Part shown: positions 1,733 through 21,923 of the stretch, in pieces
How the letters are laid out: every line of letters starts with the position of its first letter
Position numbering within the stretch: position 1 is the stretch's first letter
NCBI RefSeq assembly: GCF_000013405.1
Contig: NC_007759.1
Location: 2,791,001 to 2,855,000 of the forward strand
Origin: Syntrophus aciditrophicus SB
GTDB lineage: Bacteria; Desulfobacterota; Syntrophia; Syntrophales; Syntrophaceae
Length of the DNA: 64,000 bases
Reading direction: 5' to 3'
Notes under the pieces: model-generated
What the model was told of the DNA's origin: nothing
Databases searched by the model: none
Seen by the model: the letters and a program-made list of their open reading frames with translations, nothing else
Program-made: the position numbers and the translations under genes

Positions 1733-2347
1733 CTAACGGACGATTACTTCAACCCGTCTGTTCCTCGGTTCCGCAACCCCTTCCGCGGTTTTCACGAGGG
1801 GATTGGCTTCCCCGTGATAATCCAACTCGATGGCATCAGGATGTACACCTTTCACAACAAGGTATTTCTTGACACTCAAGGCTCGTTTTCGGGAAAGAAT
1901 ATAGTTTTTCTCGTCCGTCCCCACCCTGTCCGTATGGCCGATAACGCTGATATCCTCTGATTGCCGGGAACTGATGGCTTCATGAGCGGAATTGAGAACC
2001 TTCAGCGACGGTATGTTCAACTCGAAGCTGTTGGTTTTGAAATACAGGATGAAGGTCAAAGGCTTTTCCGGAAGCGCGGCGAGGACGTCCCCGAAAATCC
2101 GATGGATCTCCTTATCATCCATCACGGAGGCCGGGGATACAGGAGCTGTGGCTTCGTCATGGACTTCCGCCATCTGTCCCGCCTGTGTCATGATTTGTGC
2201 TCCACCCTTATTCTGAACGGTGATTTCCCCTACTTTTCCATCAGGGTCGGGGATGAGAATGACCCGGGTTCTGTGGGCAGGCGCGCAGGCAGCGAAAGAA
2301 AGCAGCATGAATGCACTGGCCAGAAGAATCAGGGATGAGAATTTCAT
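1733..2347 (-). CDS. OmpA-family lipoprotein
   Basis: A 204-residue protein with a type II signal peptide ending in the lipobox LSFAAC, so it should be lipid-anchored, probably in the outer membrane. The C-terminal half (about residues 95-204) is an OmpA/Pal peptidoglycan-binding domain with the VIGHTDRVGTDEKNYILSRK motif and a terminal RNRRVEVIVR. The middle is a short linker without a recognised domain. Its ATG overlaps the stop of the upstream FecR gene by four bases (ATGA), so the two are translationally coupled. The likely role is tethering a surface or periplasmic FecR-domain partner to the cell wall; this role is inferred from the pairing. Confidence 0.9.
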   Translation of the reverse strand: MKFSSLILLASAFMLLSFAACAPAHRTRVILIPDPDGKVGEITVQNKGGAQIMTQAGQMAEVHDEATAPVSPASVMDDKEIHRIFGDVLAALPEKPLTFILYFKTNSFELNIPSLKVLNSAHEAISSRQSEDISVIGHTDRVGTDEKNYILSRKRALSVKKYLVVKGVHPDAIELDYHGEANPLVKTAEGVAEPRNRRVEVIVR

Positions 2348-2799
2348 TTTTTGTCCGCCCCTTCGACCTGCACCAGGAAGTGTGTTCCCCGAATGCCGAT
2401 GGTCGCCGCGGGCGTTTCAAAGCGTACGGACGCCGGGGAAAGTTTCGCGATAACGCCTGAAAGGTAGGCAGCGGTTCCTCGGAACATCCGGGTCACAATG
2501 GAAAGTTTTCCCTGAGACGGGGCGAAGAGAAATTCATCAACGGCAATCTCACTTCGGGGTCCGAGAGAAAGGGTGGTGTTATCCCTGAAGATGACGCCCA
2601 TTGTTCCATCGGGACCGGTCCTGAGAAGATCGCCGGGATAAATCCTGTCGTGTTGTTTTACCTGGATCGCCTGCTGCTGCCTCACAATAAACGCCGTTCC
2701 CTTGAAAGTCTTGACTCTCGCTGCTTCGCCTTCAGCAACGGCCATGGCCGGCGTACTGAGAAGCAAGATTAAACAGAATACGCAAACAAAGTACCTCAT
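2344..2799 (-). CDS. Secreted FecR-domain protein
   Basis: A protein of about 151 residues with a Sec signal peptide (MRYFVCVFCLILLLSTPAMA) followed by a complete FecR domain. Visible hallmarks are the RIYPGDLLRTGPDGTMGVIF strand and ETPAATIGIRGTHFLV. The start at 2799 is preferred because AAGGGG lies eight bases before it; an upstream TTG at 2805 is badly spaced. Classical FecR proteins are anti-sigma factors with a cytoplasmic N-terminus, which this one lacks, and no ECF sigma gene is nearby. It is therefore likely a secreted, non-signalling member of the family. It is first in a two-gene operon with the OmpA lipoprotein. Confidence 0.87.
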   Translation of the reverse strand: MRYFVCVFCLILLLSTPAMAVAEGEAARVKTFKGTAFIVRQQQAIQVKQHDRIYPGDLLRTGPDGTMGVIFRDNTTLSLGPRSEIAVDEFLFAPSQGKLSIVTRMFRGTAAYLSGVIAKLSPASVRFETPAATIGIRGTHFLVQVEGADKK

Positions 2800-3221
2800 G
2801 GACAATTCCCCTTCGACCTTTGCAATCTGCTAAAAACTTGCCTTACTTTAAAAAGTACAGGAAGAATACCGCACGAGACCAACAATGAACAGATATGAGA
2901 CGTCGCAGGAAGTAGAAGAATTTGCATTCTGTTATCAAGATGTTATCCCCTTGGGACAGAATTGCCCTTACGGGGAAATACCTTAACCATTCAGAAAGTT
3001 CGCAATCTTTTTATATCAGCGAAAAATAAAAAGCAAACAATTTTAATTTCATACTGAAAAAATTGATAAAGTTTTACCTGGAAGGATACCATTTTTTTCT
3101 CTTTTATAACTCCAGAACAGAGTCTATCCAGTTTACCGATGTATTGCTTGCAAAAGGATTCGGGGGCGTATAGACTTCCCTGCGCAATGACATAAGAGGT
3201 AAAATAGAGGTAAAACCCTGT
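2800..3221. other. Intergenic region between divergent FecR operon and dgt
   Basis: No convincing gene lies here. The region is A/T-rich and must hold promoters in both directions, but I see no textbook pair of boxes. Just before dgt the 11-base unit AGAGGTAAAAT/C occurs twice in tandem (3195-3216), giving two AGAGGT ribosome-binding-like motifs. Confidence 0.5.
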
Positions 3222-4424: not shown

Positions 4425-4759
4425 TGGCAGATATTACAGTCAAGAATCTTTTTGACGGGATTCCGGAGTCTCTCGCGGAGGAAAAAATCGACGGACTCCT
4501 GGAAACATCCGCCTTCCGGGTTGAACGGATCGTATCCCGGGGACAGGCCTCGCCCCCGGGATACTGGTATGATCAGGAGGAGCAGGAGTGGGTTCTGCTC
4601 CTCAGCGGAAGTGCGGGATTGAAATTTTTTGGACAGGATGCCTTGACCATTCTGAAGCCGGGAGATTCTCTTTTGATTCCCGCGCATGCCCGGCACCGGG
4701 TGGAATGGACCGACCCGGCGCAGGATACGGTCTGGCTGGCTTTCTTTTTTTCCGGCTAA
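4424..4759 (+). CDS. Small cupin-domain protein
   Basis: A 111-residue single cupin. The second half has the barrel pattern LLLSGSAGLKFFGQ, then LTILKPGDSLLIPAHARHRVEWTD, containing the conserved G-D-x-x-x-I-P-x-x-x-x-H motif. Members often bind a metal and small molecules, but no substrate can be named. It starts one base inside the dgt stop codon and converges with the Tim44-like gene on the other strand; the 3' ends overlap by four bases. Confidence 0.85.
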   Translation: MADITVKNLFDGIPESLAEEKIDGLLETSAFRVERIVSRGQASPPGYWYDQEEQEWVLLLSGSAGLKFFGQDALTILKPGDSLLIPAHARHRVEWTDPAQDTVWLAFFFSG

Positions 4760-5739
4760 CTTTCCTGATTGACGGCGGAAAGCCGCCAGGGATTGTTGCC
4801 CGTCGGCCGGGTGAATGTCCAGAATTCCACAAACTTAACGGGTTCCGTTCTGCTTCCGGAAACCACTTCTCCCGATGCCTCATCGATCGTATAATCCAGC
4901 AGGTTGGCATAAAACTTCACGGTAATAAAGTCCTGCCCACCCTCCTGCCAGGCTTCGGTAATATCCACGGAACGGACGGCAATGTTGTCCAGCTTGTTGA
5001 TTCTCTTTTTCGCGCGCAGCGTTTCAGCATCCTGTTGAATCGTTTTGCAGACCTCATCGGTCAACAGATTCCGGACGCCGGACATGTCCCGACCGGCCCA
5101 GGCACCCTGAATCTGGAAGAAGTGATCGAGAACGGAATCCTTGAAGCGCCTTTCATCGAACTGATAATCCATCTGCCGGATGGCATCCAGCCCGCCACCG
5201 CCTTCATAGCCTGATGCGGGCGGAATGTCCTGAATCGGGGGGGCATAGGAACCGGGATTGAAGGCGTCCCTGTTCGCCATGCCGCCGTAGGCCATTGGGG
5301 AACTCATGGCGGTCGCCGCCTGCCGCCGCTTCTTGAGAAACCAGTAAATTCCATACAGAATGGCGCCGATCAGCAGGATATCCATCAGACCGATTCCCCC
5401 ACCCAGACCGCCTGCGCCGCCGAATCCCAGACTGCGGAAAAGAAATGCGCCGGCCATGCCGCCCAAAACGCCCCCGGCGAGACTTCTCATGAAACTGCCA
5501 CCAGGCTGTGATTGTGTCGTGTTGTAGGGTGAAGGTCGGGAAGGGGTGTTATAGGATCGTGAGTCCTGATAGGAACGGGACGGAGAGCCTGGCGAACTGC
5601 TGAAGGAACGGGATCCACGGCTTCCGAAAGACCGTCCGCCACCGACGCGCGCTTCGGCCTCCAGCGAAACGAAATAGAACATTGCAAAGAACACGGCAAG
5701 AAGAATGAGCCCCTTTTTCCTATTACTGCAACTATTCAT
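4756..5739 (-). CDS. Tim44-like domain membrane protein
   Basis: Start chosen at 5739, where GGAGGACTAAG precedes the ATG; a longer frame from 5772 has no such site. An N-terminal hydrophobic signal (KKGLILLAVFFAMFYFVSLE) is followed by a low-complexity Gly/Ser/Arg linker. Then come one or two membrane-spanning glycine-rich segments (GGVLGGMAGAFLFRSLGFGG and MDILLIGAILYGIYWFLKKR). The C-terminal 150 residues are a Tim44-like/MlaC-type fold with the FFQIQGAWAGRDMSGVRNLL core. Bacterial relatives are anchored in the inner membrane with unknown function. It is monocistronic, with its own promoter. Confidence 0.88.
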   Translation of the reverse strand: MNSCSNRKKGLILLAVFFAMFYFVSLEAEARVGGGRSFGSRGSRSFSSSPGSPSRSYQDSRSYNTPSRPSPYNTTQSQPGGSFMRSLAGGVLGGMAGAFLFRSLGFGGAGGLGGGIGLMDILLIGAILYGIYWFLKKRRQAATAMSSPMAYGGMANRDAFNPGSYAPPIQDIPPASGYEGGGGLDAIRQMDYQFDERRFKDSVLDHFFQIQGAWAGRDMSGVRNLLTDEVCKTIQQDAETLRAKKRINKLDNIAVRSVDITEAWQEGGQDFITVKFYANLLDYTIDEASGEVVSGSRTEPVKFVEFWTFTRPTGNNPWRLSAVNQES

Positions 5740-5763
5740 CTTAGTCCTCCTTTTTCTTTCCCT

Positions 5764-5778
5764 CCGGAACAATTCCGG
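5764..5778. promoter_or_regulatory. Perfect 6+6 palindrome in the leader of the Tim44-like gene
   Basis: CCGGAA and TTCCGG are exactly inverted around a CAA centre. The element falls a few bases downstream of the predicted transcription start of the Tim44-like gene, so it could be an operator or a small RNA hairpin. No regulator is suggested by the neighbourhood. Confidence 0.3.
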
Positions 5779-5788
5779 ATTGCCCTGA

Positions 5789-5815
5789 ATAGTATTTCTT
5801 TCTCGAGCTTGTCAA
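5789..5815 (-). promoter_or_regulatory. Sigma-70-like promoter for the Tim44-like gene
   Basis: On the minus strand TTGACA (5815-5810) is followed after 15 bases by TACTAT (5794-5789). Both boxes are near consensus, although the spacing is short. It lies between malQ and the Tim44-like gene, implying separate transcription of the latter. Confidence 0.4.
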
Positions 5816-5869
5816 CACCTTTCCCCTTACACGCTCCAAGAACGCGAAAAGATACGGCAATTCCTCTAC

Positions 5870-7375
5870 TCACAGACGGCCGTAAAGTTCCGTCATCTCC
5901 CGAAGCCGCTGAATAATCTCCGGGGTCAGGGATTCCGGAAGAAACCGCCATTGCCAGTTCCCCCCGAGCCTTCCCGGCAGGTTCATCCTTGCCTTTTCAT
6001 CAAGGCCCAGAATGTCCTGCAGGGGGAAAATGACCAGTTGCGCCACGCTCATCATGGCCAGCCGAATCACAGCCCAGTGCACATGGGAAACCGTCACCCG
6101 GTGTCCCAGATAGCGAAACAGCCGCTTTTTGTCCTGACGCGTCGCTTCTCTGCTGAACCAGCCCCGGACCGTATTCAGATCATGTGTTCCGGTGTAAGCG
6201 ATTGTATTTTGAGGAAAATTATGAGGCGCGCAGGGGTTGTCCGGCAGCGAATCGTCAAAGGCGAAAAGTACCGGCCTCATTCCCGGAATTTCATAGCGGG
6301 TCATGATTTCCCGCATATCCGCGGAGGTCGCACCCAGATCCTCAGCGATGATGGGCAGACAGGGGAAGGTTTTGAAGAGCTGCCGGAAAAAATCTTCCGC
6401 CGGCGCTTTTTTCCACTGACCGTTGACTGCCGTTTTTTCTCCGGCCGGCACCTCCCAATAGGAAATAAACCCCCGAAAATGGTCAATCCGCAAAAAATCG
6501 CAGCATTGAAAGCCCTGACGGAGACGGTTCATCCACCAGAAATAGCCGGTTTCCTTTAAGATGTCCCACCGATAAACAGGGTTTCCCCAGAGCTGGCCTG
6601 TTCGGGAAAAGAGATCGGGAGGCACGCCGCTTACGGCCAGGGGTTTTTTTTCTTCCGAAAGTTTGAAAAGCTCCGGATGAGCCCAGACATCCGCACTGTC
6701 ATAGGCCACATAGATCGGCAGGTCTCCAATCAGATGGATTCGCTTCCGGCGGCAGTATTCTTTCAGGGAAAGCCACTGCCGGAAGAAAAGATATTGAAGA
6801 AATTTCTCCCTGGCGATGGGCAGGGCCAGTTTTTTTCTGATTTTCTTCAGCGACGCCGGCTTTCGGTCCCGCAGTTCCGGCGGCCAGGTCTGCCAGGTCC
6901 CGTAGGGGAATTCCCTTTTCAGCGCCGCAAAGAGTGCGTGATCGTCAAGCCAGAAGGCCTGCTCTTCGCAGAAGTCCGTCCAGCGACCACTGCGCACCCT
7001 GCCCCGACTCCGAAACCGTTCAAAGGCCAGGCCGAACAGGCGCTCTTTGAACGCCGCCGCCTGTTCATAATCTACAGGATCTGAAGAAAAGCACGGCGCC
7101 TCCTCAAGTTCCGTCAGGGTCAGCAGACCGTCCCGGCACAGAAATTCCGGACTGATCAGCAGGGGATTGCCGGCAAAGGCGGAATAGCTGCTGTATGGAG
7201 AATGTCTGTGAATGGCAAGCGTGGGAGAGAGAGGAAGGACCTCCCAGAAACTCTGGCCGGCTTCGGCGAGGAAATCGGCAAACCGGTACGCCTCGCCGCC
7301 CAGATCGCCGATCCCGTAAGGCGAAGGCAGGGATGTCACATGGAGCAGGATGCCGCTTCCTCTTTGCTTGATCAT
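5870..7375 (-). CDS. malQ: 4-alpha-glucanotransferase (amylomaltase, GH77)
   Basis: A 501-residue enzyme, full length for the family, that moves maltodextrin segments between glucans in glycogen or maltodextrin metabolism in the cytoplasm. The N-terminus RGSGILLHVTSLPSPYGIGD is the GH77 signature. Catalytic segments are visible: FLRIDHFRGFISYWEVPAGE with the nucleophile Asp, PIIAEDLGATSADM with the acid/base Glu, and AYTGTHDLNTVRGWF with the third Asp. It begins at an ATG close to the amino-terminal signature. No other glycogen genes are next to it; a link to glucose-1-phosphate supply for the trehalose and glucosylglycerate genes further right is only a guess. Confidence 0.95.
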   Translation of the reverse strand: MIKQRGSGILLHVTSLPSPYGIGDLGGEAYRFADFLAEAGQSFWEVLPLSPTLAIHRHSPYSSYSAFAGNPLLISPEFLCRDGLLTLTELEEAPCFSSDPVDYEQAAAFKERLFGLAFERFRSRGRVRSGRWTDFCEEQAFWLDDHALFAALKREFPYGTWQTWPPELRDRKPASLKKIRKKLALPIAREKFLQYLFFRQWLSLKEYCRRKRIHLIGDLPIYVAYDSADVWAHPELFKLSEEKKPLAVSGVPPDLFSRTGQLWGNPVYRWDILKETGYFWWMNRLRQGFQCCDFLRIDHFRGFISYWEVPAGEKTAVNGQWKKAPAEDFFRQLFKTFPCLPIIAEDLGATSADMREIMTRYEIPGMRPVLFAFDDSLPDNPCAPHNFPQNTIAYTGTHDLNTVRGWFSREATRQDKKRLFRYLGHRVTVSHVHWAVIRLAMMSVAQLVIFPLQDILGLDEKARMNLPGRLGGNWQWRFLPESLTPEIIQRLREMTELYGRL

Positions 7376-10193: not shown

Positions 10194-13100
10194 TCAGGGG
10201 GCGGCTTTGACTGTTCCGGCTCCGGTTCCACTGAAAGAACCGGAGCCTGTGCCATTGTAAGAACCCGCAGCGCCACCCTGGAACTGAACGTTCCCTGTAT
10301 AGCCGCCGTTCAAGCTGCCGCCGCCGTTCACCGTCGCGCCCCATTTGTTGCTGTCCCAGCGGACAGGCGTGAAACTGGCCGTTATGCTCCCCCCGCCCGT
10401 TGAATTCAAGGTTATCGATTCATTCAAAGCCGGGGCGGCCGTATAGGCGCCACTGACATTCTTCGTCGCCCAGAGCTGGGGAGCGTCTCCCGTTGACCGG
10501 GCATAGAAGTTGACATTATTCATCTTTACATCAAGATTGTTTCCTTTTCCCTCTAAATTTACACTCCCCACCTGAATGCAGGGGATATTCAAAGCCTCAA
10601 GAGCGGCTATTCCCGTAACCGTACTTGCCATATCGACGAGCTTGCCCGTTTCCATCCAGGCACCTGTGGAAACGGCCTGCCAGGTTGATGTCGCCACCGG
10701 ATCAAAGGCGCCGTGAATATCAAGGGCCAGGATGTCGGCGCCGCCCTGCTGCAGATCGATGCGCGCTCCCGCGTTTGCTCCTTCAAAATTCCCTCCCTTG
10801 TCCGGACTGAAAAGCCCGTCGTTTTGTGTATAGGACAGAAAATACATCTGTCCAGTCATATTATTGTCCGGCAGATAGCTGAAATTCAGCTCAAAATTTC
10901 CCAGAGGCGTCGTTGTCATATCATAAGATCCGCCCTGACTGGTCTGAACAATGCCCCAGGCCGGCCTTCCACCGGGATTATTGGGATCATCGACATACAG
11001 CGCCGGATGGTCAATGTATGACGTTCTGATCCTCAGCACCCCGAGATGGACCTGACCGCCGGCAGCCGTCGTTGCGGAAGGCATATCTTCATCGCAATAG
11101 CTCCTGTAGCTGTCAAAGGTTCTGATGATGCCATATTGATCATCACGGAATTGAGTGGCGTCCATATTGGAAATTTCCGATGCCAATGGAACCGGCAACC
11201 AGGTTCCCTCCGCCTCCCAGGCGTTAAGCTGCAAGCAGGCGCTTCCAGTCAGCGAGCCTTTCAGGATGCCCGCGTTATGGCTCGGATCGGCATAGAGTGC
11301 GGCGATGGAGCCCTTCAGGCTGCTTTCCCATGGGGAATCCGCGCTTCCCCTGTTGTGAACACACCCGCCGAGCGTGCCGAAATAGGCACCACCAAGCGGC
11401 GAGGTTGTATTCTCATAAGAGTTCAGGGTGATTCTCGGATCAAAGCTGACAATGTTTCCGGAGAATATTGAAGGCGCCGTTTCCCTGTTTTCGGTGTCGA
11501 ATTCACCGAGAAATGTAATCCCCGTTTCCGTGGATGTCGTCCAGAGATCGCTTTTGAGCCCGCCCATGATGCCTTCCACGTGGTCGTAGTCAAAGATAAA
11601 TTCACTGGCACTGCCGGCATGCACCCATGATTCGGCCGGTGCGGTCTCAAGAGCGGCAAGGCCGCCTTCCGTGTAAAAACCACCGTCCGAATAGACATAA
11701 TCGCTTATTCCCTCCTTCGTCCAGACATCCACCCTTCCGTCCGTATAATTTTTCTGCACAATCGTGTTGTTGGCTGCATCCTCAAAACAGGAATGCCCGA
11801 ATCGCTGTGCGCCATTTACGGGATGATCATCGCTGTAACTGTAGTTGTATACGGAACCGTCGCCATATTCATAACGACCTCCCCTTATATGCCGTACGAT
11901 GTAACTGCGGCCGTCAATCCCGCTGCTGTAGTGGATATCCGCCGTTTTTTCCCAAATCCCCATGGAGTCGGCCGACCAGATCCCATTAGTCGATCCTTCA
12001 CTGTCCGGGATATAGGAACCCAGCAACTGGCCGTTCTTCAGGATGCCCATTCTGGTGTAGGTCATGAATTTTCCGTATTCCCCGTCCATGTAAGCAGAAA
12101 CACGACCGCTTCTCCAGGTCGAAGCAGTTGAGGGAATATCAGCCAGCCAGAGGCCGGCATCGGCAATCCACGAGGCTGATCCGTTCTGATAAAATCTCCC
12201 GAATTCACCGCTTCCAAACAGACCGGCCCGCCAGGCGCCGGGATCATGCGGATTCTCATACTTGTTATCCAGAGCAAAGGACAGCGAGTAAATTCCCCAG
12301 TCCTCGCCTCGGATGGACATCGTCCCGCCATAACCGTACCAGCCGGAGAGGAAACCGGAAGAGGAAGAACTCCCGACAAAACCGCCTGCCGCGTTATCCA
12401 GAAAAATATAATTCTGGAACAGGTTGACGTTCGCGGCCTCGAGCAGGTCCTCTGCAGAAATGTGTTCTTTTGTTCCGTTTGTTTTCCAGATCGGATGGAT
12501 CGCTCCATCCGCTTCCCACATGCTGATTTCCGGGTAGTGGCTTCCCGTAAAGCTTCCCCTCAGGATACCCGCGGCGTTGTCCGGATCAATGTAGAGGCCG
12601 TAAAGAAATCCCTCGAGACCGTTCTGTGCGCCGCCGATCCGCCCTGAAATGAACCCGCTGTAAGCCCCGCCGTCAGGCGTCGTTCCGCCGGGTTGATCTT
12701 CACGCCAGCTGTCAAAACTCAAGCTGAAGCCTGTGGGTAAATCCTGCTCGATTATGGGAACTGCGGATTGATACTCTCCCATTAACACGATATCTGCGGC
12801 TGAGGCGGTCCAGAGGTTTTCCGCTCCCCCCATAATGCCCTTCATGGCGCCGGTACGCACGATTCCGCTTGATGACCAGGATTTCTCCGTAATCTTGCAG
12901 GCGCCGTCAGTAAAGGATGACAGGAAATACGACAGATTTCCCTCCGGAGGATCGGCCTCAAGATTCAGACTTTCACCGGTTGTCCCCCCCTCCACGATCC
13001 GTTCCAGACCGTCTCCCCGTGACCATTTGACATATTGTCCATTCGGTAGGTACTCATATTCCGCATCGTCAGCACCGCTGTTTTCCAGTTCTTCGAACTG

Positions 13101-14969
13101 TCCACCCCTGCCTCCCGCCACGTTGTCACCGGAAAAGTATCCATACCGATATGATAAAAAGTCTTCACTGCTGTCCAGTCTCTTTTCGTACTCGATCTCG
13201 TGAACGGCGCCTGCGGTCAAAGACAGGATCGGACCACCAAGAAGGCTGGTAAACGCCACGGGAACCTCCGTATATTGCCCGATTCCCTGGCTGCTTCCCT
13301 GCCAGACGCCGTTCGGGGTGTGAAATGCTCCTGTAAAGCTGCCGGTACCGATGCCCATTCTGTCCGCCGAGAGGTAATGGAACAGGGACGTTCCGATGAG
13401 ATCGGCACCGGCAACCGAACCGGCGGCGCTGCTCAGCCAGCAGGTATGATCGACTTCCGAAAAATTCCCGGCATCGATCCTGAAGGAAGCACCGATGGGA
13501 ATGCCGGCTCCCTGATAATTCAAGATCCAGCCGCCCCAGTTCTGACCGGAAATACCGGCTACCTCGCCGTTGGTCATCTCCCCGAAAGAGGATTCGCCAA
13601 AACCGGTCAGTCCAACGTTTCCGGACACGGCATAACGGCTCAAATCAAAGGACTTATAAACGGTGGATGTATTTCCCGCCTCGTCCGTACCTTTAATGTC
13701 CAGGGTAAAAAAACCTGTTTCATATCCATTAAGATCAAAACCGAAAGAGGGATTCACCACCGCATAATCACCTGCCGGGGTAATCCCCGTCTCATGGATT
13801 CTGTATGCATACCGTATTGAAGTTGCATCCGAACCTGAAAGATTAATCTGGATATGAGTCCCGTCGGCGTCGACCGGGGCAGCCGATTCCGGCATAACGG
13901 AAATCACCGGTGCTGTTGTATCCACAGGTTTTTCCGCATGTTTTTCTACAAGGTTTGAAATATCGGTCACCGGATCTGTCGTCAGACTGCTGCTTGCCTC
14001 CGGCGCTGAGGTTAACGAAGATGAAGGCGGAGCAACCGGCACGGATGCGAAGGCGCCATCCAATGTGTCAGCTTCGGGATTGAACGAAGAGTCCGGCACA
14101 GTCCCGCCAAAACCGCCGATTGCCGGGCTCCCGTCGCTCTCTGTTCCTGACGTTGCCGAAAGACTTCCCGGGGCTGTTGCCGAAGCTGCTTCCTGAGTGG
14201 CGCCGTCCGGTGAGTCCGTTATCGTGGAAACATTTGATTGGGGCTGTGCCGCTGTTCCGGAAGAGGACTCCGATTCGCTCTGCGTTGCGCTGCCAGAAGA
14301 GGTTGTCTGCTCAGTTCCTTTTGCCGGTTCCGTATCCTTCAGATGCTGCCCCATCTCCATCGCTGTCGCGGGCCGGACAACGGGCGGCTGGTCGGGACCG
14401 GCCGCCAGCATCGTCTGATTGGCGGCAATCGACTGGATATGCTGCGGCTGGTTATGGCTGTATCCGTATCCCGCACCTTCCCTGAAGGTAGCGCCGGTAA
14501 TTCCATTCTGATGATAACTGACAAAGTCGGTCCCCCGAACGCCGCAGACCGCCGTCGGGGTATGAATTTCATATTTGAGATTCCGGGAAAATCCTGTGGA
14601 ATGACGCGCGTTCAGGACCATATTGCGCACTTTGCCCCGGTAAAGATTCAGGATCTCCTTCCGCTGATTCTGCTCCACCAGATATTCCGTAATCCGGAGC
14701 CGCGTATTTTCCGCAAACCGCACGATGTTCCCGTCAAGAAAGGTCACCTCGCACTTTGACTTGCTCTTGGTGCGGATGATATCGCCCACCTGCACCGGCT
14801 CTCCGACGGAAACGCGCTTCGCCGCCTTTCCGGGCACAGTCACATCCACATTGCCTTCAACACCTGTAAATTTACCGACCTGCGCCGCCGGAGACGAATC
14901 GGGGATGAAGGCGATCAATGCGAGGATCAATAAAACGAATCGAATCGGAACCAACCATCCTGTTTTCAT
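10194..14969 (-). CDS. Giant secreted FecR-domain protein with long repeats (1591 aa)
   Basis: A Sec signal peptide (residues 1-29, ending SSPAAQ) precedes a FecR domain at about 30-170, with PVQVGDIIRTKSKSKCEVTF and HTPTAVCGVRGTDFVSYHQN. A Ser/Thr/Pro/Ala-rich, probably disordered linker spans about 200-350. An Ig-like segment opens with DTTAPVISVMPESAAPVDAD (about 350-440). The remaining 1150 residues are rich in Gly, Trp and aromatic residues and contain two copies of a unit about 420 residues apart (GIMGGAENLW and GIMGGLKSDLW). The last 30 residues are almost only Gly/Ser/Thr. It has no membrane anchor and no ECF sigma partner. It lies 50 bases after the TPR/barrel gene in one operon. A surface or exported adhesin-like role is inferred. 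Confidence 0.85.
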   Translation of the reverse strand: MKTGWLVPIRFVLLILALIAFIPDSSPAAQVGKFTGVEGNVDVTVPGKAAKRVSVGEPVQVGDIIRTKSKSKCEVTFLDGNIVRFAENTRLRITEYLVEQNQRKEILNLYRGKVRNMVLNARHSTGFSRNLKYEIHTPTAVCGVRGTDFVSYHQNGITGATFREGAGYGYSHNQPQHIQSIAANQTMLAAGPDQPPVVRPATAMEMGQHLKDTEPAKGTEQTTSSGSATQSESESSSGTAAQPQSNVSTITDSPDGATQEAASATAPGSLSATSGTESDGSPAIGGFGGTVPDSSFNPEADTLDGAFASVPVAPPSSSLTSAPEASSSLTTDPVTDISNLVEKHAEKPVDTTAPVISVMPESAAPVDADGTHIQINLSGSDATSIRYAYRIHETGITPAGDYAVVNPSFGFDLNGYETGFFTLDIKGTDEAGNTSTVYKSFDLSRYAVSGNVGLTGFGESSFGEMTNGEVAGISGQNWGGWILNYQGAGIPIGASFRIDAGNFSEVDHTCWLSSAAGSVAGADLIGTSLFHYLSADRMGIGTGSFTGAFHTPNGVWQGSSQGIGQYTEVPVAFTSLLGGPILSLTAGAVHEIEYEKRLDSSEDFLSYRYGYFSGDNVAGGRGGQFEELENSGADDAEYEYLPNGQYVKWSRGDGLERIVEGGTTGESLNLEADPPEGNLSYFLSSFTDGACKITEKSWSSSGIVRTGAMKGIMGGAENLWTASAADIVLMGEYQSAVPIIEQDLPTGFSLSFDSWREDQPGGTTPDGGAYSGFISGRIGGAQNGLEGFLYGLYIDPDNAAGILRGSFTGSHYPEISMWEADGAIHPIWKTNGTKEHISAEDLLEAANVNLFQNYIFLDNAAGGFVGSSSSSGFLSGWYGYGGTMSIRGEDWGIYSLSFALDNKYENPHDPGAWRAGLFGSGEFGRFYQNGSASWIADAGLWLADIPSTASTWRSGRVSAYMDGEYGKFMTYTRMGILKNGQLLGSYIPDSEGSTNGIWSADSMGIWEKTADIHYSSGIDGRSYIVRHIRGGRYEYGDGSVYNYSYSDDHPVNGAQRFGHSCFEDAANNTIVQKNYTDGRVDVWTKEGISDYVYSDGGFYTEGGLAALETAPAESWVHAGSASEFIFDYDHVEGIMGGLKSDLWTTSTETGITFLGEFDTENRETAPSIFSGNIVSFDPRITLNSYENTTSPLGGAYFGTLGGCVHNRGSADSPWESSLKGSIAALYADPSHNAGILKGSLTGSACLQLNAWEAEGTWLPVPLASEISNMDATQFRDDQYGIIRTFDSYRSYCDEDMPSATTAAGGQVHLGVLRIRTSYIDHPALYVDDPNNPGGRPAWGIVQTSQGGSYDMTTTPLGNFELNFSYLPDNNMTGQMYFLSYTQNDGLFSPDKGGNFEGANAGARIDLQQGGADILALDIHGAFDPVATSTWQAVSTGAWMETGKLVDMASTVTGIAALEALNIPCIQVGSVNLEGKGNNLDVKMNNVNFYARSTGDAPQLWATKNVSGAYTAAPALNESITLNSTGGGSITASFTPVRWDSNKWGATVNGGGSLNGGYTGNVQFQGGAAGSYNGTGSGSFSGTGAGTVKAAP
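11187..11577 (-). repeat. Coding repeat copy 2 in the giant FecR protein (approximate limits)
   Basis: Encodes GIMGGLKSDLW ... GGAYFGTLGG ... LYADPSHNAGILKGSLTGS ... LNAWEAEGTW. It matches copy 1 upstream in order and spacing, although the DNA has diverged, so the duplication is old. Confidence 0.6.
12487..12842 (-). repeat. Coding repeat copy 1 in the giant FecR protein (approximate limits)
   Basis: Encodes GIMGGAENLW ... GGAYSGFISGRIGG ... LYIDPDNAAGILRGSFTGS ... ISMWEADGAIHPI. The distance to copy 2 is about 1265 bases (about 420 residues), which sets the period of the long repeat. Confidence 0.6.
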
Positions 14970-15019
14970 TATTTCGACGAACCTCCTGCCTGAATCTTCT
15001 TTACGCGCGTGGATACGAA

Positions 15020-16633
15020 TTAGAACCGAAACTCGAATCCTCCCATATACACATCCTTCCTGTACTCGTTAGCCGGCATATTGGCGTTGCAGTGGGTGTG
15101 AGAATACTGGACAACCAGACTGGCATGCTTCCAGAACTCCCAGGCCAGCCCCGCCGAACCCGTATAGGTCTCATCGCGGCGTTTCGCGTATTTTTCCTGA
15201 AAGACGCTGCCCACACTGACAAGGTAAGGCTGGTCATGCCTGTATTGCTGAAAAAAGGCGCTCCCTGCGATCTGCAGGCTGAGAGGCCCGAAACGTTCGC
15301 TCAACTCCGCCGACAGCAGGGGAACGCTCAAATTGGCGGAAAGCCGATGGCCTTCATTTTCCCACCAGTCACCTTCCGCGTCATCCCGGTTGAAGTCATA
15401 TTTCAGATTGAAAAAGCCATTTCCGGCAAACAGCCAGATCCAGCTCAGATATGCCCGGGGGCCCACGGCATCGCGGATGCCTTCATCGTTGTCCACTTTC
15501 TGATTGAAGTAATCCTTTTTATCGTAACCGGCAAAGACCTCCAGGATATGATTCGAATTGACAAGGAAGCGCACCGCCGGACCGGCGGTGAAATAATCGA
15601 GATAATGTTTGTAGCCGGGATCGGAGTTCGCCTGGGGATTGGGATCGGGATCCGTCCTTAACAGGACGTTGGTGTAACCGGCCGTCAGGCTGACCACGAA
15701 GCGCCCGAAATTGTATCCGGGAGAAAGGGAAACGCTGTTGGCCATGGAGTTATGAGAATGGGAGTGTTTCTGATTGATGTTGGAGGCAAAGGCATACTGG
15801 GCGTTAAAAAGCCAGGGCCCCTGAAGCCTGGGAACAAAGTCGAGGCGGGCGGATGTGTTGAGCGTCGCGCTTTCTTCATCGGTGATATCCCCCGCGATAG
15901 CTGCGTCAACCGGCCTGGAAACGAGATTCGTGTCGTATCCGCCGAAAATACCGACCGTCAACCGGACAGGCCGCTCCAGATACAGCCGCTGTTCGACCAT
16001 ATCCACATACTGCCGGGCAAAGCCGGCCAGATCCGAGGCTGGATCCCTTAGAACGGTCGCCTTGAGACGCTCCTTCGCCTTTTCCAGTTTGTTTTCCTTG
16101 ATATAACAGACGGCACTCTGAAAATCAGCGGCCTGGGCAAGAGTGGGATCGAGCTGTTTGGATCGCTCAAAAGCCGAGACGGCCTCCTGATTGGAATTTT
16201 CGCGGGTCAGGATCAAACCTTTAAGGAAGGCAAGCCGGGCCGGGGCAATGGCTTGTGCTTCGGCTGCCCGGATCCATTTTTTGGCGTCTTCCAGCCGGCT
16301 TAGCCGATACAGGACATCTGCCAGTTCGAGATAAGCCTCCCTGACCGGAGGAGAAAGGGTGACTGCATCCTGAAGAGAAACCGCCGCTTTCTCATAATCC
16401 GGCAGCTGTTTACAGGCCATGCCAAGAAAAAAGGCCGCGACCGACGAACGGGGCTCCCGCTCCCGCGCTTTACCCAGGAGCTCCACCGCCTCTTCGTAAT
16501 TCTCCTGCCGATACTGCTCGATCCCCGTCCGCAGAGCGGAAGATCCCTCATCCAGGGCATAGGAAGCGTGAAAAGAAAAAGGAAACAACCAGAAAACAAA
16601 TGACAAAAGCAGATTCAAAATCCATCTTTTCAT
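15020..16633 (-). CDS. TPR-repeat outer-membrane beta-barrel protein (Slam-like architecture)
   Basis: About 537 residues from the start at 16633, where GAAAGGA is nine bases away; an ATG at 16642 is too close to that site. After a signal peptide (ending HASYALDEG), residues 30-225 form TPR helices (GIEQYRQENYEEAVELLGKA and similar repeats). From about residue 230 the sequence alternates as a transmembrane beta barrel, with strands such as VRLTVGIFGGYDTNLVSR, and ends in the outer-membrane signature GGFEFRF. The TPR-plus-barrel layout resembles surface lipoprotein assembly modifiers (Slam) and related DUF560 proteins. It precedes the giant FecR gene by 50 bases and may help to display it. The Slam relation is architectural only. 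Confidence 0.8.
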   Translation of the reverse strand: MKRWILNLLLSFVFWLFPFSFHASYALDEGSSALRTGIEQYRQENYEEAVELLGKAREREPRSSVAAFFLGMACKQLPDYEKAAVSLQDAVTLSPPVREAYLELADVLYRLSRLEDAKKWIRAAEAQAIAPARLAFLKGLILTRENSNQEAVSAFERSKQLDPTLAQAADFQSAVCYIKENKLEKAKERLKATVLRDPASDLAGFARQYVDMVEQRLYLERPVRLTVGIFGGYDTNLVSRPVDAAIAGDITDEESATLNTSARLDFVPRLQGPWLFNAQYAFASNINQKHSHSHNSMANSVSLSPGYNFGRFVVSLTAGYTNVLLRTDPDPNPQANSDPGYKHYLDYFTAGPAVRFLVNSNHILEVFAGYDKKDYFNQKVDNDEGIRDAVGPRAYLSWIWLFAGNGFFNLKYDFNRDDAEGDWWENEGHRLSANLSVPLLSAELSERFGPLSLQIAGSAFFQQYRHDQPYLVSVGSVFQEKYAKRRDETYTGSAGLAWEFWKHASLVVQYSHTHCNANMPANEYRKDVYMGGFEFRF

Positions 16634-17162
16634 GCAGAACATCCTTTCTATCGATCAGGTCGTTCCTGAACTCTCCTGTTAACTGAAAATTCATTGAGCA
16701 TGCTGAATCGTGAGGAATCGCTTCGTTCCCATTTTCAGTCACTCTGGAAAGACCCTTGCCTGCGACAATGCTGAAGAGCGGGGCGGCACTGTGCCGGGCA
16801 TAAGGTTTTTCTGTCGCCGGCTTACAACTTTATTACGATATAAAATACCAAATGTCTCAGCGTACATATATTTTTTGTGGCGTTTATTCTCACTTATGAT
16901 ATTGTCTGTCAACTTTTTTGTAGATTTCTATTTTTAATTGGGTGATTTTTTAAATACAGGAAGCTGAAATCATGCTGACCGGCAGAGACATGAACTTCTC
17001 CAGGGTATTGAGCGATTACAGCACAGCCCCTGGAACGTGAGGCTTCTTCAGCAATGACCTCTCCAAAAAAATGGGGAATAACTTTAGCTTTCAAGCCATG
17101 CCTTAAAAGACAGGAAAAGGAGCGGCAAGAGGTAACCGTCATGAATGCAAAGGATCAGGAGT
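16634..17162. other. Intergenic region between divergent barrel and sensor-kinase genes
   Basis: About 530 bases, A/T-rich around 16820-16960. Short ORFs on either strand here look like chance. No clear promoter boxes, repeats or known RNA motif were recognised. Divergent promoters must lie within it. Confidence 0.5.
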
Positions 17163-20012
17163 ATGACTGTGAAAATTCCCTTTGAGGAAATGTTTAAAAA
17201 GGAGTCGCTGTTTCGAGAACTTTTTGAAAGCTCCGGCAATGCGCTGATTCTGCTGGAGTCCGGCATCTTCCGCCACTGCAATCTCCGCGCCCTGCGTCTC
17301 TTTGGCTTTGATGACAGAGAGGAGCTTCTCCACACCCCGCCGTCAAAAATATTCCCTGAAGCTCACTCGGCTGTCATGAAATCGGACAAAGCCTGGAGCG
17401 ATCAGCTCCGGAATGCATCGGAAACGGGATCGGCTCATTTTGAAACGCTCTGCCAGCGCAGGAGCGGGGAACAATTCGCCGCCGAGGTGCTGATCTCCGC
17501 GCTTTCTTATGAGGGCGGAAGAATCCTGCAGGTCTCTGTGTGCGACATTTCAGCACGTCGCCGGACGGAAGAAGCACTGCTCGAATCGCATAAGCAGTTC
17601 AAGGGTATTATTGACTTTTTCCCCGACGCGGTACTGGCCATCGATACGGAAGGGAAGGTGATCGCCTGGAATCGCGCCATGGAACAGATGACCGGAGCAC
17701 CCGCCGGCGAGGTTATCGGCAGGGGAAATTATGAACACGGCTTTCAAATTTACGGAACCCGGCGACCCATCCTTGCCGATCTCGTGCTGAATCCCCAGGA
17801 AGATATCGAACGCGCCTATCCCCGTTTTTACCGCAAAGGCAATTATCTGATCAGTGACACCAGCTCTTCAAAACTGAGCGATACCCTGGGGAAGGATTAT
17901 TTCACTTCCGTAGCGGCCACGCCTCTGTATGACGATGAAGGAAAAATCATCGGGGCCATCGAATCAATCCGTGACATTTCCGACCGTCGGCTGGCCGAAC
18001 GCGCGCTGGCTGAATCTCAGCGTCGGTTTAAGGATATCATCGACTTCTTTCCGGATGCGATCCTGGCTGTCGATATCGAAGGCCGGGTCGTCACCTGGAA
18101 CCATGCCATGGAACAGATGACCGGCATTCCCGCCGAAGAGATGCTGGGAAAAGGAAATTACGAATACGCTCTTCCTTTCTATGGAACCCGGCGACCCATC
18201 CTGATCGATCTGGCCATGCGCCCCCAGGAAGAAATCGAACACCATTACGTATCCATTCATCGCGAGGGGAACCGTCTGCTTGGTGAAACCTACATTGCCA
18301 ATCTGCATGGCGGAAATATTTTTTTATCCGGTACGGCAACAGCCCTCTACGACAGCAAAGGCAGGATGATCGGGGCCATCGAGTCGCTGCGCGACATTTC
18401 GGATCGCAAGGCGACGGAGGTGGCACTGCAACAGGCGAAGGAAGCAGCCGATGCCGCCAATCGCTCAAAAAGCGCCTTTCTGGCCAACATGAGCCATGAA
18501 CTGCGCACTCCTCTCAACGCAATCATCGGTTACAGCGAACTGCTGCAGGAGGAGGCGGAAGAAGCCGGAGTGAACCACTTTATCTCCGCCCTGGACCGCA
18601 TTCACTCCGCGGGCAAACATCTCCTGGGACTGATCAACGACATCCTGGATCTGTCCAAAATTGAAGCAAGCAAGATCGAACTCTATCCGGAAACATTTTC
18701 CGTGTCGGAGATGATCGAAAGCATAGTGAAAATCGCCGATCCCCTGGTAAAGAAGAATGGGAACATCCTTATCGTGAAAGGCTGCGAAACCGGAGGAGAA
18801 ATGCATGCCGATCTGACCCGCCTGAGGCAGTGTCTGTTCAATCTTCTCAGCAACGCCGCGAAATTCACGACCAGCGGTGTCATCACCCTGACCGTTTCAC
18901 GTACTCAGGAAGCGGAACAGGAGTGGATGAACTTCAGTCTGCATGATACCGGCATCGGCATGACTCCTCAGCAGATGGAACGGCTTTTTCAAACCTTCAC
19001 TCAGGCCGATTCATCAACCACACGTAAATTCGGCGGCACCGGGCTGGGGCTGACCATCACCCGCAACTTCTGCCGACTGATGGGCGGCGATATTACCGTG
19101 GAAAGTGAATACGGCAAGGGGTCCCTTTTCACCATCCGTATTCCGGCTGTCACTGCGGCCGGACCGGCAGAAGCTGAAGAAATGCCGGCAACGGACCCTC
19201 TGATCGACCCGGCGGGCGCAAATGAACGGACAGTGCTGGTCATTGACGACGACCCGGCTGTTCGTGATCTCCTGCAACGGTTTCTGTCCCGGGAAGGCTA
19301 TTCCGTCGCCTGCGCCGCGGGAGGGGAAGAAGGCTTGCGGCTCGCCCGCGAATTACACCCGGAAGCCATCACGCTGGATGTGGCCATGCCGCACATGGAC
19401 GGCTGGACGGTCCTCTCCGCGCTGAAGACAGACAGAGAAACGGCGGATATCCCCGTCATCATGCTGACCATAGTGGATGAGAAAAACCTGGGCTATGCCC
19501 TGGGAGCGACCGAGTACCTGCTCAAACCCCTGGACAAGGAGCGCCTGCTGATCGTCTTGAAGAAATGCACTCCAGATGCCGGTCGGCTGGTGCTGGTCGT
19601 GGAAGACGATGAAGCAACCCGTTCATACCTTCGACGGATACTGACGCAGGGCGGCTGGAATGTCGTAGAAGCGGAAAACGGCCTGACAGGACTGGAATGC
19701 CTCAGGGAGCATCGACAGGAGAACCTGCCGCAGATCATTCTTCTCGATCTCATGATGCCGGAGATGGATGGTTTTCAATTTATTCATGCACTGCGCAGCC
19801 GGGATGAATGGAGGGTAATCCCTGTGATTGTCCTGACGGCAAAGAACCTGACCTTTGAGGAAAAGCGCCTGCTGGAAGGTTGTGTTGCAAAAATCCTTCA
19901 GAAAGGCTCCCTGTCCCGTGAAGAGCTGCTGCGGGAAGTCAGCGGCAGGTTGATGGAATTGAAACAGGACGGCAAACAGGAATCTCAGAACGGATCGATC
20001 CGATCGAAATAA
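17163..20012 (+). CDS. Hybrid sensor histidine kinase with three PAS and two receiver domains
   Basis: About 949 residues with no membrane segment, so a cytoplasmic sensor. Order: PAS1 (about 10-125), two near-duplicate PAS domains (about 140-265 and 280-405), HisKA with phospho-acceptor His in [20 protein letters not shown], HATPase with [20 protein letters not shown] and [11 protein letters not shown]1 ([19 protein letters not shown]) and REC2 ([19 protein letters not shown]). All catalytic boxes look intact. Start chosen at 17163, preceded by AAGGATCAGGAG; an ATG at 17145 in the same frame is the alternative. A CheY-like gene and a REC-GGDEF gene follow closely, so the output is probably phosphorelay to cyclic-di-GMP. 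Confidence 0.93.
17593..18420 (+). repeat. Tandem duplication of a PAS module inside the sensor kinase
   Basis: Two units about 425 bases apart encode almost the same protein: [18 protein letters not shown] versus [18 protein letters not shown], both followed by AMEQMTG, GNYE and YGTRRPIL, and both ending GAIES-[IL]-RDISDR. This indicates a fairly recent internal duplication. Confidence 0.85.
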
Positions 20013-20047
20013 AATTTACAGACAGGATGAAAAAGGAGTGGAGTCCG

Positions 20048-20434
20048 ATGGCCAAATTATTGATTGTGGAAGATAACGAGATGAACCGTGACATGCTGAC
20101 CCGCCGGCTGGAACGCAAAGGCTTCACCACCGTGGTGGCGGTTGATGGCGTTGAGGGGATCGCCATGGCCCGCTCCGAAGCACCGGATCTGATCCTGATG
20201 GATATGAGCCTGCCGGTCCTGGATGGGTGGGAGGCAACGCGCCGATTGAAGGCCGCACAGGAAACCCGCACCATTCCCATCATCGCTTTGACGGCCCATG
20301 CCATGGAGTCGGATCGGGAAAGGGCGCTCCGGGCCGGCTGCGATGAATACGACAGCAAGCCCATCGAATTTCCCCGTCTGCTGGAAAAAATTGCCGCCCT
20401 GCTTGATTCGTCGGGAGGTAAAGGTTATGATTAA
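20048..20434 (+). CDS. Single-domain response regulator (CheY-like)
   Basis: A stand-alone receiver of 128 residues from the start at 20048, where GTGGAG lies just upstream; the ATG at 20027 gives a 7-residue extension. Acidic pocket KLLIVEDNEMNRD, phospho-acceptor Asp in ILMDMSLPVLDGWEATRRLK, conserved Thr in IIALTAHAM and Lys in YDSKPIEF are all present. It resembles the phosphotransfer receivers that serve hybrid kinases. It sits 35 bases after the kinase and overlaps the next gene by eight bases, so the three genes form one operon. Confidence 0.93.
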   Translation: MAKLLIVEDNEMNRDMLTRRLERKGFTTVVAVDGVEGIAMARSEAPDLILMDMSLPVLDGWEATRRLKAAQETRTIPIIALTAHAMESDRERALRAGCDEYDSKPIEFPRLLEKIAALLDSSGGKGYD

Positions 20435-21923
20435 TTTGTTGACCACTCAAAACCTTGTTATTGGAAAATCACCTCAGGCAATCCTGGCGCACATCCGTCA
20501 CGAGTTACGTGGCCCGATCAACGCCATTCTCGGTTACAGCGAGATGTGGCTGAATGATGATTCCCTCCGGGCCATTCCAAATCTGCACGCCAATATGGCA
20601 AAACTGCATGCAGCCGGACTGCAGTTGCGATCTCTGATCCGCGACATACTGGATCCGGCGAAGCACGACGGAAGGAAGGAACAGGACGTTCGGGATCTGG
20701 GCGTGATTCTGCGCCACGCGTTCCGCATGCCGGTGTGGGCGATTCTGGGCTATAACGCCATGTTGACGGAAAACAAAGCTGAGACGGTTGATCGGGCAAC
20801 GGAATTTCTCGCTGATCTGCACCGTATCGAGGATGCAACCCAGCGCCTGTTTACTCAGGCGGATATGATCGCCACGACCGGCTGTCTGCCTGTCGATCAA
20901 ACCATCTATAAGCCGTCTAAAGAACTGAGGGTCCAGCTGCAGACCATCGTGGCGAGATTCCGTTCCGCCAGACATCCCCGGTCGCAATACGCCGCCGCTG
21001 AGAAAGGAAAGATCCTTGTTGTTGATGATGACACAGCCAACTGTGATCTGCTCTCCCGCCAGCTTGACCGTCTGGGTTATTCGGTGACTGTGGCACAGAA
21101 CGGCATCATCGCCCTCGACCTGCTTTCAACGCAAACCTTCGACCTGGTGCTTCTCGATATCCTCATGCCGGTCGTGAGCGGGATCGAAGTCCTGAAATGC
21201 CTGCGCTGCGCCTGGTCCATCGCGGAATTGCCGGTTATCATGGTCACGGCCCGGGATCGCAACGACGACATCGTGTCCGCGCTGGATTGCGGAGCAAATG
21301 ACTATGTGGCAAAACCCTTCTCACTGCCCGTGGTTCTTGCGCGGGTGCGCACTCAAATGATGCTGAAGCAGACGGTTGCCGACCTGGAGAATTTAAACCG
21401 GAAGCTGGAAAAGCTGTCCCTTCATGACGGATTGACCAATATCCCCAATCGGCGATGCTTTAATGAAACCTTTGAACGCGAACAGCTCCGGACGAGACGG
21501 AACGGGATGCCCCTTTCCCTGATTCTGCTGGATGTCGATTTCTTCAAACGGTACAACGACACTTATGGACATGAGGCCGGCGATCAGGTTCTCTGCCGGG
21601 TGGCGGATCTGCTGGTCTCAGCGACCGACCGCGGAGGAGACATGGTCTTCCGCTACGGCGGGGAGGAATTCGTGATCCTTTTGCCGGAAACCCCGGCTGC
21701 CGGGGCAAGGTTCGTGGCGGAACGGATTCATTCGGCGATTCAGCAGCTGGCCATTCCTCACCTGACCTCCACCGTCGCCCATCACCTGACCGCCAGCATG
21801 GGTATTGCCACCGCCACGCCTTCAGACAAGGAAAGCTATTACACGCTTTTCGAAAGGGCCGATTCTCAGCTTTACAAGGTGAAAGCCAGCGGACGCAACA
21901 GCCTGCGCCAGTCGCCTGACTGA
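20427..21923 (+). CDS. Receiver-GGDEF diguanylate cyclase with histidine-kinase-type N-terminal segments
   Basis: Start at 20427 (MINLLTTQN), preceded by GGGAGG; this gives 498 residues. Residues 15-60 resemble a HisKA helix pair (HIRHELRGPINAILGYSEM), and a second degenerate copy follows (LRHAFRMPVWAILGYNAM). There is no HATPase domain. A receiver domain spans about 190-310 (KILVVDDDTANCD, LLDILMPVVSG). It is followed by a GGDEF domain with LTNIPNRRCFNETFEREQL and the active GGEEF signature (YGGEEFVILLPETPAAG), so it should make cyclic di-GMP. The HisKA-like region may let it dimerise with, or be phosphorylated by, the upstream kinase. Confidence 0.92.
   Translation: MINLLTTQNLVIGKSPQAILAHIRHELRGPINAILGYSEMWLNDDSLRAIPNLHANMAKLHAAGLQLRSLIRDILDPAKHDGRKEQDVRDLGVILRHAFRMPVWAILGYNAMLTENKAETVDRATEFLADLHRIEDATQRLFTQADMIATTGCLPVDQTIYKPSKELRVQLQTIVARFRSARHPRSQYAAAEKGKILVVDDDTANCDLLSRQLDRLGYSVTVAQNGIIALDLLSTQTFDLVLLDILMPVVSGIEVLKCLRCAWSIAELPVIMVTARDRNDDIVSALDCGANDYVAKPFSLPVVLARVRTQMMLKQTVADLENLNRKLEKLSLHDGLTNIPNRRCFNETFEREQLRTRRNGMPLSLILLDVDFFKRYNDTYGHEAGDQVLCRVADLLVSATDRGGDMVFRYGGEEFVILLPETPAAGARFVAERIHSAIQQLAIPHLTSTVAHHLTASMGIATATPSDKESYYTLFERADSQLYKVKASGRNSLRQSPD

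Follow-up and report, generated by a model that had tools for sequence, protein, structure and literature searches.

A TPR-barrel gene and a FecR-headed giant gene recur as neighbours in three bacterial phyla, with features of a type XI-like export pair

Why should the gene of an outer-membrane barrel stand directly before that of a giant secreted protein whose head is a FecR domain, when no sigma factor gene lies nearby? An earlier note on a 64,000-nt stretch of the Syntrophus aciditrophicus SB chromosome (NC_007759.1, positions 2,791,001 to 2,855,000; hereafter the window) had described a Slam-like TPR-barrel gene followed after 50 bases by the gene of a 1591-residue FecR protein, and had suggested that the two may form an undescribed surface display or two-partner export system. 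The coordinates, Pfam and AlphaFold2 agree with this gene description. Both lie on the minus strand, the barrel gene at 15020..16642 and the giant gene at 10194..14969 (1591 aa; ORF and Pfam), and the gap from the former to the latter is exactly 50 bases. From the stop at 15020, the barrel frame extends to a first ATG at 16642 (540 aa). A further ATG in frame, at 16633 (537 aa), is the likelier start, its AAGG being better placed. The giant gene is preceded by AGGAGG.

The barrel protein consists of a periplasmic TPR domain (15977..16549, residues 32-222), with Pfam TPR matches at residues 38-206, and a 14-strand beta-barrel (15023..15967, residues 226-540). The structure prediction that the earlier note had called for (AlphaFold2, 61 homologues; mean pLDDT 93.5) placed the TPR helices at residues 32-222 and 14 strands at residues 226-539, and the protein ends in a C-terminal Phe (...GGFEFRF), as in BAM-inserted barrels.

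The search for conserved pairs, set in advance as the test on which the proposal should stand or fall, found the pair widely kept. In a first survey of both proteins in 100 genomes of the same order as S. aciditrophicus, the barrel and FecR genes stood side by side, in that order, at the surveyed loci and in many families. A scan of 84,980 species genomes then yielded 80 loci, distributed over Desulfobacterota (Geobacter and Geomonas among them), Nitrospirota and Omnitrophota. Geobacter sp. OR-1 and Geomonas paludis are two carriers of the pair. Altogether, a FecR gene lay directly downstream of the barrel gene at 102 of 110 distinct informative loci, with a median gap of 35 nt. Among the eight exceptions, two (L094 and L222) had the barrel preceded by a giant or FecR-type gene, and the remaining ones had at most 2.5 kb of sequence downstream of it. 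The distances among barrels and among FecR heads were correlated (r 0.79, a value reached by 0 of 1000 permutations), as expected for partners inherited together. The pair was absent from the three other Syntrophus species searched, and is thus not essential to the genus. That the two genes are chance neighbours, or that the FecR protein is an ordinary anti-sigma regulator, has a negligible probability: these genomes contain many FecR domains, but the adjacency count by itself refutes chance neighbourhood, none of the eight neighbouring genes tested, between 4.7 and 23.6 kb of the window, encodes a sigma factor, and the giant begins with a signal peptide, not with a cytoplasmic anti-sigma domain. 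This fits the claim that FecR is here a secreted module. No published account of such a pair was found in searches of the open literature, which reach few subscription papers and preprints.

To which known proteins is the barrel related? The nearest solved barrel structure was CymA (Z 22.4, 3.1 A over 271 residues), followed by OmpG (Z 20.2), both of which are 14-stranded porins. When the barrel protein was used for a profile search of PDB, TPR matches crowded out the rest. SlipAM (PF04575) was matched by 23 of 61 barrel homologues (E<0.01) and TPR_Slam by 38 of 61, and seven FecR-paired homologues (G309, G242, G190, G265, G300, G231 and G366) passed the curated SlipAM cut-off with 31-45 bits over the barrel; 14 control genomes gave zero SlipAM matches. 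Since homologues match SlipAM while the window protein itself does not, the latter is, judged from sequence, a remote relative of Slam/DUF560 at the superfamily level and no textbook member, and the label Slam-like is upheld in this sense. In full-length Foldseek searches, the top matches of the window protein were BcsC (E 7e-13) and PelB, both of them polysaccharide-exporting TPR-barrels. This counts against protein export and would suit a glycan exporter of the BcsC/PgaA type, with the FecR giant as an accessory matrix protein. We regard this as very improbable, as the barrel has 14 strands against the 16 of the BcsC barrel, no glycosyltransferase was found among the window neighbours tested, and what recurs beside the barrel is a protein that carries a signal peptide itself. 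TPR domains are common in polysaccharide exporters, as the authors of the type XI work point out (PMC8406197).

The giant starts with a predicted Sec signal peptide that has no lipobox cysteine (14886..14969, residues ~1-28), followed by a FecR domain (14370..14882, residues ~30-200; Pfam match at residues 64-160, E 9e-12) and a Ser/Thr-rich linker (13935..14357, residues ~205-345). The Ig-like region claimed earlier stands in part: a weak stretch is present at residues ~350-445 (13635..13922), where Big_13 was matched by 3 of 36 relatives, but the window giant itself has no Pfam match there. Downstream, a family HMM located one partial and two full copies of a ~300-aa beta module, at residues 442-582 (13224..13646, E 3e-9), 702-1023 (11901..12866, E 2e-53) and 1127-1443 (10641..11591, E 1e-27), the latter two being visible in the fold model as well. 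The repeats were detected neither at the DNA level by TRF nor by self-BLAST, and the HMM alone revealed them; the long repeats are thus real, as the earlier note had it, but too diverged for these two methods. The protein ends in a conserved C-terminal domain (10197..10970, residues 1334-1591), whose unique end cap (residues 1444-1591) comprises the last eight strands. A first alignment of giants (A3), in which module copies were mixed with the C-terminal domain, was discarded for another (A4).

The model of residues 600-1591 (pLDDT 81.7, pTM 0.86) consists almost wholly of beta structure and closes with eight strands. Fold searches returned no trustworthy match, scattered viral ones included (Foldseek E>5e-3 against PDB; VIA Z<7), an absence of clear relatives that is no proof of a new fold. 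TbpB was among the weak matches (Z<5), and a TbpB-type barrel had no Pfam match in the giant by sequence. Likewise, no RTX or type I secretion family was matched in the giant, no two-partner secretion family in either protein, and no TPS-type beta-helix passenger in the giant.

Among the relatives, partners range from FecR-only proteins of ~250 aa up to 2808 aa, with as many as seven of the ~300-aa modules in the middle. The shortest (247-275 aa) consist of FecR and a Pro-rich tail, whereas large partners follow a common plan: a signal peptide with the FecR head comes first, modules fill a variable middle part, and a C-terminal domain of ~260 aa comes last. Partner types of 564 and 615 aa combine the FecR head with the C-terminal domain. 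The FecR head is the sole part common to all partners. As a family profile, its first half matched region I of the ice adhesin MpAFP (5ix9, E 9e-5), which we take to be the retention region of that protein. The retention_LapA family was matched by 47 of 54 heads below its cut-off (E 4e-6, 27 bits vs 50), and the second half of the head weakly resembled a putative anti-sigma protein of solved structure (E 0.12). All 54 heads tested matched Lsa33, at scores far below the NCBIfam cut-offs. The Leptospira FecR lipoproteins Lsa33 and LipL45 also carry a FecR head outside the cytoplasm and are annotated as surface adhesins, but they are small (models of 310-391 positions).

The C-terminal domain is shared by giants of three phyla, forms the very end of the partners that have it (479-2808 aa), and has no relative in Pfam or PDB. 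DUF2807 was rejected as its identity, the match being weak and limited to one of 30 members. The domain was found in 23 of 395 phylum genomes, and all 23 fell among the 53 of 395 that have a barrel (hypergeometric 6e-23, with relatedness ignored). Giants with both FecR head and C-terminal domain that are unlinked to any barrel also exist (L205, L206, L049), which suggests that one barrel serves several cargoes in trans.

From the pairing, anatomy, remote homology and co-occurrence described above we infer export, docking and adhesion, and favour with somewhat better than even confidence the reading that the pair is a dedicated outer-membrane exporter with its own cargo, resembling type XI (Slam/DUF560) systems. 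The giant would cross the inner membrane through Sec and lose its signal peptide, and Skp would then keep it from folding in the periplasm. The TPR arm would then recognise its partner through the FecR head, proposed for this part since every partner has one, and the C-terminal domain of large partners may provide another signal or nucleate folding. The repeat region would pass through the 14-strand pore and fold outside as a chain of beta modules, while the FecR head would stay periplasmic as a plug and anchor, like the apparently related LapA-type module.

The step assigned to Skp draws on neighbour genes and on Slam biochemistry: Slam moves unfolded TbpB and requires Skp (PMC9090332). In about 15 distinct loci an Skp/OmpH gene stands next to the pair, at times 9-92 bases behind the giant. 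Across the 53 fully sampled loci (one of them entered twice, its barrel frame being split), Skp stood beside the pair in 9 of 33 that have the C-terminal domain vs 0 of 20 that lack it. Genomes carry 1-3 Skp copies, most of them one, and at those Skp-bearing pair loci that were read the surrounding genes are unlike the usual skp locus. These neighbours, the restriction of the C-terminal domain to barrel genomes and the silence of the type XI papers, which do not mention FecR in their main text, all fit the earlier idea of an undescribed export or display pair, of which passage to the surface is the inferred part. Against export, the window barrel lies below SlipAM, the giant has neither a TbpB-type barrel by sequence nor a clear fold match, no Skp gene adjoins the pair in the window genome, and partners of 247-275 aa have no obvious passenger.

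The pair shares with type XI outer-membrane proteins (Slam and NilB; SlipAM PF04575, TPR_Slam PF24575) the N-terminal TPR and C-terminal 14-strand barrel, a neighbouring cargo gene, a remote homology seen through homologues, and the Skp link. It differs in that the window protein stays under the SlipAM threshold and the cargo is a FecR giant with its own C-terminal domain rather than a TbpB-type barrel protein, and its carriers (Desulfobacterota, Nitrospirota and Omnitrophota) fall outside the discussion in the T11SS cargo papers. The LapA/MpAFP RTX adhesins are likewise giant repetitive beta proteins with an N-terminal module that appears homologous to the first half of the FecR head, and c-di-GMP-type regulators lie near some relatives of the pair; however, the pair has a Sec signal peptide and a TPR-barrel, not a type I exporter, and no RTX C-terminus was found in it. 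Two-partner secretion (FhaC/FhaB) also joins a barrel gene to a giant exoprotein gene, but there the barrel has POTRA instead of TPR and 16 instead of 14 strands, and the exoprotein a TPS domain instead of a FecR head. We also weighed a broader proposal, namely a separate multi-phylum outer-membrane system in which FecR is the address tag and anchor read by the TPR-barrel, the C-terminal domain marks giant cargoes, and one barrel also serves cargoes encoded elsewhere; to this we give slightly less than even credence.

What the displayed chain does may be read from neighbouring regulators. The gene after the barrel encodes a VpsT-like LuxR regulator in ten loci, mainly of Desulfobacterales, eight of which also have a PilZ protein, and CHASE2-cyclase genes occur in 26 loci at a looser setting and within 1.5 kb of the pair in 12 of 53 fully sampled loci. 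Because of the VpsT-like and PilZ genes between the two genes of the pair in Desulfobacterales and of the CHASE2-cyclase neighbours, the displayed chain probably serves as an adhesin or in the biofilm matrix, with second messengers controlling it.

The same cyclase genes bear on a different reading, in which the FecR protein sits in the periplasm on the TPR-barrel and signals surface conditions to a CHASE2 adenylate/guanylate cyclase, the giants being elaborated periplasmic or partly threaded sensors. The cyclase adjoins pairs with FecR-only partners too (L125, L128, L151, L221), L210 and L221 show barrel-FecR-cyclase runs, and a Burkholderia biofilm operon combines a LysM-FecR protein with a CHASE2 kinase (PMC5192318). 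That BiofilmReg operon resembles the pair in its secreted FecR protein beside a CHASE2 sensor and in its biofilm role, but has neither TPR-barrel nor giant, and its CHASE2 is on a kinase. As the window has no CHASE2 gene and most giant-type pairs have none close by, and as a sensor does not readily account for giants that reach 2808 aa, carry a barrel-dependent C-terminal domain and have Skp genes beside them, we judge this reading unlikely. The short FecR-only partners and the CHASE2 neighbours nevertheless leave some probability to sensing, and export and sensing may each hold in different branches. A version with two jobs, in which an ancestral barrel and short FecR protein served as a sensor or gated pore and giant lineages reused it as an exporter by hanging cargo on the FecR head, accords with the span of partner sizes, which has short FecR-only proteins at one end and 2808 aa at the other, and with Skp neighbours occurring solely with C-terminal-domain giants while CHASE2 occurs with both partner kinds; a single export role with small cargo would fit as well, and we hold this version to be less probable still than sensing. 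If dedicated export is right, Slam-type export would reach beyond Proteobacteria, for the most part host-associated and marine ones, to bacteria of three phyla that are largely uncultured, many secreted FecR proteins would gain a role in docking and anchoring rather than anti-sigma signalling, a new cargo domain would be defined that is usable to find further giant surface proteins, and there would be a pointer to how syntrophic and metal-reducing bacteria may build contacts and biofilms.

Several further features of the loci were recorded. A VpsT/CsgD-like regulator gene, mostly with a PilZ gene, lies between barrel and FecR giant at L084, L085, L089, L092, L093, L101, L104, L108, L111 and L137, the sequence ending before the giant at L089 and L104. 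CHASE2-adenylate/guanylate cyclase genes, in either orientation, are at or near the pair at L136, L139, L144, L125, L128, L151, L210, L219 and L221. In the window, a hybrid PAS histidine kinase, a lone receiver and a receiver-GGDEF protein are encoded divergently upstream of the pair (17145-21923, plus strand), and control of the pair by c-di-GMP through these genes is possible. A riboswitch upstream of the pair was dismissed, the window having no Rfam match beyond rivX at E 0.29; at 13 relative loci Rfam gave only tRNAs, and promoter and terminator scans stayed near chance.

The window holds a second FecR context, a short FecR-like secreted protein of 153 aa (2344-2805, minus strand), whose gene is followed by that of an apparent OmpA-type C-terminal protein (1733-2347). 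Tandem FecR giants, two behind one barrel, occur at L060:4899-10287 and also at L122. At L120:13403-19751, the pair is followed by genes for a 264-aa secreted protein, STN-like by eye and with no Pfam match, and for a 1810-aa protein with carboxypeptidase-regulatory-like repeats. At L056:1494-8458, L059:7663-10678 and L043 (barrel 4688-6620), the giant or the barrel is split into overlapping frames, which may reflect frameshift, phase variation or assembly error. Finally, a second small FecR protein of 254 aa is encoded just upstream of the barrel at L088:8886-9650 and L145:8695-9459.
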